Source of the DNA: an uncultured Alphaproteobacteria bacterium
Lineage (GTDB): Bacteria > Pseudomonadota > Alphaproteobacteria > Micropepsales > Micropepsaceae
Assembly: GCA_903857685.1 (NCBI GenBank)
Contig: CAIOFO010000082.1
Location: forward strand, 1 to 36,438
Direction: 5' to 3'
DNA length: 36,438 bases
The first letter of the stretch is position 1, and every line of letters begins with the position of its first letter. Position numbers and translations under genes: made by a program. Of the stretch, positions 5,664 through 36,438 are shown piece by piece. The notes below the pieces were generated by a model. It ran no database searches and was not told the DNA's origin. It saw nothing but the letters and a program-made list of their open reading frames with translations.

Positions 5664-7596
<1,933 letters not shown>

Positions 7597-34323: not shown

Positions 34324-35091
34324 ATGAAATTCCTGGCGGGGCTGTTCGCGTTATTCTTCCTCACGGCGCCCGCGCTGACGTCTTCAGCTCGGGCCGCGGC
34401 GCCGACTTTCCCGCCTCTGACGGGACGGGTGGTGGACAACGCCAATATCCTCAGCCCAGCCACCAGGTCCGATCTCACCGACAAGCTGGCGGCGCTGGAA
34501 GCCAAGACGTCGCGCCAGCTTGTGGTGGTGACGCTGCCCTCGCTGCAGGGCTATGAGATTTCCGATTACGGCTACCAGCTGGGCCGCGCCTGGGGCATCG
34601 GCCAGGCCAAGCTCAACAATGGCGTGCTGCTGATCATCGCGCCCACCGAACACAAGGCGCGCATTGAGGTGGGCTATGGGTTGGAGCCCATTCTCACCGA
34701 CGCCCTGTCGGAAGTGATCCTGCAAAGCACGGTGCTGCCCAAATTCCGCAGCGGTGATTTCAATGGCGGCGTCACCGCCGGCGTGGACGCGCTGATCCAG
34801 CAATTGTCGCTGAGCACCTCGCAGGCCGAAGCCAAGGCGGCCGCGGCGGAGCAGCAGGCTCAGCAGGACCAGGGCAGCGGCCAGTCCGGCTCCATCACCG
34901 GCCTGCTCATCGTCCTGTTCATTGCCTTCGCCATCTTCCGCGTCTTTGGCGGCTGGGGCCTGCTGCCGTTCCTCTTCATGGGCGGCGGCGGACGCGGCGG
35001 CGGCCTTGGCGGCGGCGGCTTCGGCGGCGGTGGCGGTTTTGGCGGCGGTGGCGGCGGCTTCGGCGGCGGCGGCGCCTCGGGGAGTTGGTAG
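34324..35091 (+). CDS. TPM domain protein (YgcG-like) with Gly-rich tail
   Basis: The 255-aa product has a signal peptide (MKFLAGLFALFFLTAPALTS), then a TPM domain (about 30-165) with the core DNANILSPATRSDLTDKLAALE, RQLVVVTLPSLQGYEISDYG, NNGVLLIIAPTEHKARIEVGYGLE and YGLEPILTDALSEVI. A transmembrane helix follows at about 198-215, then a Gly/Phe-rich tail with FGGGG runs, ending SGSW. Such tails are normal for this family. The domain's biochemical role is unclear. The start lies two bases after repeat copy C and has no clear ribosome site; ATGs at 34300 and 34315 are alternatives inside the repeat. Confidence 0.9.
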   Translation: MKFLAGLFALFFLTAPALTSSARAAAPTFPPLTGRVVDNANILSPATRSDLTDKLAALEAKTSRQLVVVTLPSLQGYEISDYGYQLGRAWGIGQAKLNNGVLLIIAPTEHKARIEVGYGLEPILTDALSEVILQSTVLPKFRSGDFNGGVTAGVDALIQQLSLSTSQAEAKAAAAEQQAQQDQGSGQSGSITGLLIVLFIAFAIFRVFGGWGLLPFLFMGGGGRGGGLGGGGFGGGGGFGGGGGGFGGGGASGSW

Positions 35092-35093
35092 AC

Positions 35094-35777
35094 ATGCTCA
35101 CCAGGGCGGATCATGCGCGCATCGCCGATGCGATCACCGAGGCCGAGAGCAAGACCTCCGGCGAGATTTTCTGCGTCCTGGCCCATGAAGTGTCGCGCTA
35201 CCGCGAGGTGCCGCTGGGCTGGGCCGCCATCGTCGCGCTGGCGGTACCGCCGCTGCTGGTGCTGGCGGGGCTGCGCCGGCTGGCGCTGGCCGACATCTTC
35301 TCAAGCTGGACCGATGACAGCCTCGGGATGGTGGAAGACCTGATCCTGCGGGCTCTGTCCACCTATTCGCTGCTCCAGGCTGGATTGTTCCTGATCGTGG
35401 CGCTGGTGGTGGCGCTGCCTATGGTGCGCCGGGTGATGACGCCGCGCTTCCTCAAGCGCCATCGCGTCCGCCAGCTGGCGCGGCATCATTTCGCCGCCGC
35501 CGGCATGCGGCTGTCGCATGCCGAGCCGCATATCCTGATCTACGCCTCGCTCAAGGATCGCCAGGTCGAGCTGGTGGCCCATGACGCCATCCACAAGGCG
35601 GTGGGCGACGGCCCCTGGAACGCGGCGGTGGAAGCGGTGACCGACGGCATGAAAGCGGGCAAGCCCGCTAACGGCTTTGTTCGCGCCATTGAAATCTGCG
35701 GCGCGGCGCTGGCGGCGCACTTCCCCAGCGACGGGCCGCCCGAGAACAGGCTGTCGAACGAAATCGTGGAAGTCTGA
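35094..35777 (+). CDS. TPM domain membrane protein
   Basis: The 227-aa product has an N-terminal TPM-like start (HARIADAITEAESKTSGEIFCVLAHEVSRYREVP) with two transmembrane helices at about 42-62 and 100-120, followed by the rest of the domain (MTPRFLKRHRVRQLARHHFAAAGM, ILIYASLKDRQVELVAHDAIHKAVG). It starts two bases after the previous TPM gene with GGGGAG upstream, so lemA and both TPM genes form one operon. The function of this pair is unknown to me. Confidence 0.88.
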   Translation: MLTRADHARIADAITEAESKTSGEIFCVLAHEVSRYREVPLGWAAIVALAVPPLLVLAGLRRLALADIFSSWTDDSLGMVEDLILRALSTYSLLQAGLFLIVALVVALPMVRRVMTPRFLKRHRVRQLARHHFAAAGMRLSHAEPHILIYASLKDRQVELVAHDAIHKAVGDGPWNAAVEAVTDGMKAGKPANGFVRAIEICGAALAAHFPSDGPPENRLSNEIVEV

Positions 35778-36267: not shown

Positions 36268-36280
36268 GCTTTTGCCTGAC

Positions 36281-36438
36281 GCGCGGCCCTCAAGTCGCTG
36301 GCGCGCGGGGGCCTTGGCATTTCTTGCGCATCCCTCAAGGCGCTGTCGCGCGGGATGCTCGGCATTAATTCAGCGGCCCGTGGCCGCCCTGCCGCGCCGC
36401 TGCTGCTACGCTGCCGCTCGCAGCAGCTTGGCACTGAC
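36281..36438. repeat. Tandem array of variable-stem hairpins at the window edge
   Basis: Three units each have a CGCTG-type apex and a trailing CTTGGCATT-like end. Unit 1 pairs GGCCC (36285-36289) with GGGCC (36309-36313). Unit 2 pairs GCATCCC (36328-36334) with GGGATGC (36352-36358). Unit 3 pairs GCTGCTGCTA (36399-36408) with TCGCAGCAGC (36418-36427), one mismatch. A GCGGCC-CGT-GGCCGC hairpin (36373-36387) lies between units 2 and 3. The array may continue beyond the window. Confidence 0.7.

Follow-up and report, generated by a model that had tools for sequence, protein, structure and literature searches.

The 36,438-nt window analysed here is the entire contig C82 (CAIOFO010000082.1) of an uncultured alphaproteobacterial genome (G000; 3.0 Mb in 160 contigs), and its last 158 bases, positions 36281-36438, hold an array of three related hairpin units, I, J and K, belonging to a repeat family that we call type A. 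A first-pass annotation had described three units with CGCTG loops and CTTGGCATT-like tails, forming a repeat array with variable arms that runs off the edge, and this description stands: all three units are present, as seen in the sequence itself, in a scan for stems and in matches to a covariance model (R3), and since the window is the whole contig, the array is truncated where the contig stops. What does not stand is the reading of these units, real as they are, as a free-standing array. They read on the minus strand, where the CTTGGCATT tail becomes AATGCCAAG and stands before its hairpin, and their relatives in other places show tails at the 3' ends of tRNA genes. We put at roughly 55% the probability that the array consists of three tandem copies of a small non-autonomous, minus-strand tRNA-tail element whose arms are rewritten by template switching.

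The three units share a plan and differ in their stems. Unit K combines the linker AGTGCCAAG, the loop core GCGGCAGCG and the outer arm GGCA with a stem, GCTGCTGC/GCAGCAGC (36399-36406 and 36420-36427), of eight perfect base pairs around a 13-nt loop; the first of the two hairpins that make up a complete element would here fall past the contig end. Unit J (AATGCCGAG, loop GCGCGACAGCGCCTTGA) has a stem GCATCCC/GGGATGC (36328-36334 and 36352-36358) of seven perfect pairs with a 17-nt loop, and the position of its first hairpin is occupied by the short GCGGCC-ACG-GGCCGC hairpin listed in Table 1. Unit I (AATGCCAAG, loop GCGCGCCAGCGACTTGA, end GCGCGTCAGGCA) has an imperfect stem and was not returned by the perfect-stem scan. 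The tails TTGGCATT, TCGGCATT and TTGGCACT begin at 36314, 36359 and 36428, and TCAAGNCGCTGNCGCGC occurs without mismatch in the window only at 36290 and 36335; after the three units, the next-best R3 match in the window has an E-value of 0.03. Because its arms differ, the array escaped a general repeat finder, and folding the whole array as RNA gave no clear advantage (z -1.44; 24 of 200 shuffles were equally good). With the 158 bases as query, BLAST returned four further hits within the genome (E 1.5e-6 to 3.3e-5). All are in sense; three immediately follow a tRNA called by ARAGORN and the fourth follows a tRNA 3' fragment. Similar units do exist elsewhere. The proposal that the array is a source or cluster of dispersed hairpins holds in part: related units are dispersed through this genome and its relatives, and nothing marks the array as their source. 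Other tRNAs bear one or two copies, a tandem pair also standing at tRNA-Leu(tag) of G092.

Table 1. Features at the right end of the window and their coordinates
Feature	Position	Strand	Evidence
Unit K (unit 3 of the first-pass annotation), nearest the contig end	36386..36435	-	R3 match, E 4.3e-10
Short hairpin GCGGCC-ACG-GGCCGC between K and J	36373..36387	-	Fold, 6-bp stem
Unit J (unit 2)	36322..36366	-	R1 match; R3 match 36326-36359, E 9.2e-7
Unit I (unit 1)	36273..36321	-	R3 match, E 3.1e-9
Neighbour gene, 230 aa, synteny anchor	35085..35777	+	Open reading frame list; matches in 31/69 genus genomes
Contig end; tRNA-Thr(UGU) gene expected just beyond, outside the window	36438	-	Inferred from synteny

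The anatomy of the element was derived from the 3' flanks of 41 tRNAs of G000 together with covariance models. From 5' to 3' it comprises the CCA end of the tRNA, hairpin 1 (a variable palindrome), TGNCAAG and hairpin 2. Hairpin 1, a palindrome that is nearly perfect over some 16 bp, takes the last bases of CCA into its base; in hairpin 2, an outer stem TGNC/GNCA is followed by a 2x2 internal loop, then by a stem of roughly 6 bp whose sequence is free, and finally by a conserved apex. The covariance model spans hairpin 2 only, and the tRNA address is therefore not built into it. R3 was built from 91 matches in genomes other than G000, aligned with an earlier model, R2, whose training set included the window units, and the E-values of these home-made models are rough. 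The set of 131 units described below comprises the R2 matches at E <= 1e-4; weaker or shortened copies, several of them in G001, are uncounted.

Across this set, pairing is conserved and arm sequence hardly at all. Hairpin 1 has at least eight Watson-Crick pairs in 121 of the 131 units, with 16 the commonest length, and its loop is 3-4 nt long in 84 of those 121; 61 of 1820 hairpin-1 pairs are non-Watson-Crick, 22 being GU. Identity over nucleotides 5-14 of the left arm is 0.42 for the same tRNA type in different genomes and 0.36 for different tRNAs (66 units), and at each of the six tRNA types listed the palindrome lies at the same place and differs in sequence. In hairpin 2, 47 distinct 5-nt stem sequences occur among 127 parsed units, which is not the conserved stem of repetitive extragenic palindromes (REPs). 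The constant parts of hairpin 2 lie around that stem: the apex GCGNCAGCG is found in 113 of 131 units, with CTTGA or AGTGA often following it, and among the 127 parsed units the internal loop is AA/GC in 95 and GA/GA in 10, and the third outer pair is C-G in 81, A-T in 26 and G-C in 12. A pseudoknot between the CAAG of the linker and a CTTG of the apex was considered and rejected by eye, as it fails in units with other apices.

Folded as RNA, single elements were more stable than their shuffles in all four tried (z -5.3 to -7.8). For the 91 units of genomes other than G000, pairing holds in 94.9% of the alignment cells, compared with 73.2% for shuffles, and both partners have changed in 217 cells, compared with 82.4; this signal is destroyed when the partner column is slid by one to three positions. 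Alignments A2 and A3 (the latter of 85 chosen loci outside G000, other loci being left out) were fitted to the model structure and are biased towards it; in A1, which is not model-fitted and whose structure we set from the same sequences, double changes still number 14 against 4.4 in shuffles. The covariation supports the structure in the manner of a structured RNA, and template switching could yield the same pattern.

With respect to address, an intact tRNA lies upstream in sense within 70 nt of 73 of the 131 units; no unit is antisense to a tRNA upstream of it, and one is in addition followed by a tRNA within 70 nt. The distance from CCA to the core is 26-34 nt in 67 of the 73 tRNA-linked units, whose hosts span 21 anticodon types, led by Thr(tgt) with 9 and Pro(ggg) with 8. 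Ten further units follow a T-arm/CCA motif without a called tRNA, and eight are tandem copies, a relation assigned by distance alone. A mechanically defined class of 17 units, some of which resemble tRNA relics, follows, at a distance of 10-60 nt, the stop codon that ends an open frame of at least 60 codons, and 23 units have no host assigned; by eye, several of these 40 show an ACCATT-like tRNA-end relic. A test of tRNA 3' flanks made independently of hairpin 2 found hairpins anchored at CCA behind 8 of 41 tRNAs in G000, 8 of 26 in G001 and 4 of 31 in G066, where shuffles give 0.04-0.06; 18 of these 20 begin at C75, a start at C74 being outside the test. The 20 include type A, two further tails that we call types B and C, and terminator-like tRNA-Met trailers.

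Several loci depart from the simple arrangement. On contig C50 of G000 (1-2275; L077 and L092), two tRNA 3' fragments resembling the 3' end of tRNA-Val(cac) are each followed by an element, and these fragments are perhaps att sites of integrated islands. In five genomes (L116, L196, L234, L242 and L259), protein genes that end alike, in AKFG(E)E, are followed by an element, and their stop codon sits within the left arm of hairpin 1. Open frames traverse the element in L122, L123 and L229; in the last two, a likelier downstream start (MEIHKPKPF) may make the element a 5' leader.

Among the genomes scanned, type A is restricted to one genus. R2 at E <= 1e-4 found at least one unit in 28 of 69 same-genus genomes including G000 (131 units, 15 of them in G000) and in none of 27 genomes from six other genera of the family. 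R3, with 15 candidates scored per genome, found none in 380 genomes of the class outside the genus, and three of the five genus members in the same sample were positive. In a protein tree of tig from 30 genomes, a branch with 100/100 support separates the 24 bearers from the 6 non-bearers. The bearers with names are unclassified Alphaproteobacteria and Proteobacteria assemblies and Rhizobiales bacterium dw_265. An exact 20-base pattern occurs in 20 records, of which 13 match R2 at E <= 5e-6 and one, Chersky.17_24 Proteobacteria, at E 0.007; the other six (Solidesulfovibrio, a Mycobacterium, a Hyphomicrobiales, a Gammaproteobacteria, a Prevotellaceae and a Rhodoferax) had no R2 match up to E 0.01 and were taken as chance.

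Between relatives, orthologous sites differ in the presence or absence of the element, as expected of a mobile element. Of 30 tRNA-Leu/tig loci read, ten have only about 31-37 nt from CCA to the start codon, seven carry type A (G000, G098, G081, G016, G008, G062 and, with two in tandem, G092), two (G090 and G079) have a type-A-like tail and a longer gap to tig, seven bear hairpin pairs that are of another kind or decayed, and the remaining four have the tRNA orientated differently. Four tRNAs set the sister genomes G095 and G001 apart, with flanks alignable over nearly their whole length. At Pro(tgg) and Leu(tag) G095 has an element, and the site in G001 is empty immediately downstream of CCATT. 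At Thr(cgt) the type A tail of G095 corresponds to a type B tail in G001, with identical sequence downstream of both. At Arg(acg), G001 has kept hairpin 1 and lost most of hairpin 2, and at further tRNAs of this genome hairpin 1 persists beside a shortened or decayed hairpin 2. No target-site duplication is obvious in the G095/G001 alignments.

The type B tail, GCCTTCGCTCGC-GAA-GCGAGAGAAGGC-TGCC.., was read at L305 (G001, tRNA-Thr(cgt)) and L191 (G088, tRNA-Leu(tag)), and its first 34 bases are identical at these two different tRNAs of distant genus members. The type C tail, GTTTTTGTTAGCGAGC..GAGCTTACAAAAAC-TGAGCGCCAGTGA.., occurs at L338 and L339 (G066, tRNA-Arg(ccg) and tRNA-Arg(acg)), with a second copy further along L339 and a similar stretch directly before type A in G092 (L238).

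For the window array itself, synteny points to a host. The neighbour gene of Table 1, the product of which we take to be a TPM-domain protein, was read at 30 loci, seven of which have a tRNA-Thr(tgt). In six of the seven this tRNA is convergent to the gene, the orientation that the window array would need, and an element follows directly in G096, G008, G098 and G094 and not in G006 and G067; in G066 the tRNA is oppositely oriented and without an element. On the contigs of G015, G097 and G062 that carry the neighbour gene, a Thr(tgt) element is found 2-6 kb away from it. Because of this synteny at orthologous loci, and because tRNA-Thr(tgt) is not among the 41 tRNAs found in G000, the window array is most likely the tail of a tRNA-Thr(UGU) gene just past the contig end.

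The identity, address and turnover of type A are observed directly; a template-switch origin of its arms and any role in tRNA maturation we infer. Recombination at the tRNA 3' end, together with slippage provoked by hairpins there, would let copies spread, multiply in tandem and vanish, and template switching during replication would rewrite the arms and so restore near-perfect palindromes of new sequence. Arms of this kind fit such mutation. Long inverted copies of host sequence occur in single cases: one of 24 bp that enters tRNA-Ala(ggc) of G013, one of 25 bp at Thr(ggt) of G097 and one of 21 bp that enters a 92-codon open frame of G090 (L256). The tail, presumably transcribed with the tRNA, may be tolerated or may be useful as a trailer covering the CCA end. 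Going by the predicted structure, 3' trimming of the precursor should be hindered when the CA of CCA is paired within a hairpin, and the TG of TGNC could pair either with the CA of CCA, in hairpin 1, or with the CA of GNCA, in hairpin 2, forming a possible switch. At tRNA-Ala(ggc) in L061 (G000), L108 (G013) and L260 (G066), the downstream inverted copy passes CCA into the acceptor/T-arm strand and in form resembles a retroviral primer-binding site.

Several points weigh against this account. Covariation by itself would equally fit ordinary selection on RNA. The right arm does not generally copy the host tRNA beyond CCA (2.07 for own against 2.08 for swapped hosts, 71 units), and such general copying was dropped as an explanation of the arm. 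We know of no partner enzyme. There is no dated gain of a new copy, and the Pro(tgg) difference between G095 and G001 is probably a loss rather than a gain, because five other genomes carry that copy. The 17 units assigned by a stop codon alone rest on a criterion that is weak in GC-rich DNA, and a further 23 units have been assigned no host; and the tRNA proposed beside the window array lies outside the window.

On a broader view, which we advance tentatively and hold to be less probable, types A, B and C together form a new class of site-addressed two-hairpin mini-elements at tRNA CCA ends that control 3' maturation or are moved by an enzyme recognising the tRNA end. Such elements would stand in sense, begin hairpin 1 from C75-A76, keep their shape and a short linker/apex code with stems of free sequence, and replace one another at the same tRNA.

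The strongest alternative to a template-switched tail element, in our judgement still unlikely, is a structured trailer RNA under selection, in which hairpin 1 caps CCA, hairpin 2 is a module for a protein or RNase, and the arms evolve by compensation; it would set tRNA 3' maturation or release a small RNA. The sense-only orientation, the fixed distance from CCA, the conserved apex and internal loop and the strong folds of single elements all agree with it. So does the excess of GU over AC mismatches in the hairpin-2 stem (20:6, p 0.009), which could mark selection on a sense RNA; the excess persists when hairpin 1 is added (42:18, p 0.003), but hairpin 1 taken separately gives 22:12 (p 0.12) and inclusion of the outer helix 47:36 (p 0.27), and C-to-T changes in transcribed DNA could also give a GU excess. 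The GU share of hairpin 1 is, moreover, low for drifting RNA helices. Finally, the element is missing from most tRNAs of any bearing genome, and sister genomes have lost or exchanged it.

A conventional miniature transposon or site-specific element, mobilised in trans by a transposase or integrase that recognises tRNA 3' ends, would account for the exact presence or absence after CCA, for the shared first 34 bases of type B at two tRNAs and for the tRNA 3' fragments with elements on C50. We nevertheless consider it quite improbable: neither target-site duplications nor fixed termini were seen, and the arms of hairpin 1 differ at nearly every site. The association with TnpA-REP/RAYT that the first-pass annotation had proposed finds no support, and RAYT/REP was rejected as the driver. 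PF01797 (RAYT/Y1), the only family searched, has no match in G000; within the genus it is present in 3 of 28 bearing and 15 of 41 element-free genomes, element-free meaning that none was found by scans over 40 genomes that used strict filters and scored part of the candidates; the lower frequency in bearers (Fisher p 0.024) is confounded by kinship.

That the tails are merely tRNA-gene transcription terminators alike by coincidence is very improbable: a hairpin does follow CCA directly, and initiator-Met-like trailers (G000, G066) and Thr(ggt) of G097 have T runs in the same register, but most units lack a T run after either hairpin by eye (among the units inspected, Thr(ggt) of G097 is the exception in having one after a GC-rich stem), a terminator needs neither the conserved linker nor the apex, and at tRNA-Leu(tag) the element sits before the tig start codon, where empty relatives have the short gap given above.

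Known systems resemble type A in part. REPs are likewise short dispersed hairpin repeats, single or clustered, which have a conserved stem sequence, a tetranucleotide tag and a RAYT transposase; in contrast, the stems of type A are free and RAYT is absent from G000. Rickettsia palindromic elements, alphaproteobacterial and genus-wide like type A, are inserted inside protein genes, whereas the address of type A is the tRNA 3' end. The 3'ETS-leuZ RNA of E. coli, a small-RNA sponge from a single locus, also derives from a tRNA 3' trailer; type A differs in being a repeated structured family with no known target. Bacterial dispersed palindromes are usually recognised by conserved stems. Type A conserves shape, apex and address instead, and a plain repeat finder therefore missed the array. 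The filled, empty, shortened and swapped tRNA junctions of sister genomes are natural replicates for the origin and upkeep of near-perfect hairpins, on which template switching and compensatory selection would become testable against each other, as would the effect of a CCA-covering hairpin on tRNA maturation.

Closest in position is the palindrome that one archaeon has at a constant site downstream of roughly half its tRNA genes; the authors speculate on a role in 3' maturation (PMC5217627). That palindrome is conserved in sequence (CGTTA N9 TAACG) and lies 10 bp off the gene (PMC5217627), whereas type A has free arms, starts at CCA, carries a second conserved hairpin and differs between sister genomes. 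Template-switch (quasi-palindrome) mutation, a route by which inverted repeats are created and perfected, can make and mend hairpins in one event (PMC8794818); it is a mechanism rather than an element family, and leaves the conserved hairpin 2 and the tRNA address unexplained.

Searches of the open-licence literature on such elements found no description of the family. In Rfam, no family exceeded its gathering score in the window, and for eight loci searched at E up to 1 only tRNA passed threshold; a below-threshold match to istR on one element (24 of 45 bits, E 0.48) lies on the other strand.

Elsewhere in the window, positions 5714-5738 hold a member of a second dispersed hairpin family, the perfect palindromic hairpin GTTGCCTA-GCGACAGCG-TAGGCAAC, whose core is the same as that of the array. 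Its outer stem recurs in G000 at L035 and at L098, where another hairpin is nested inside it.
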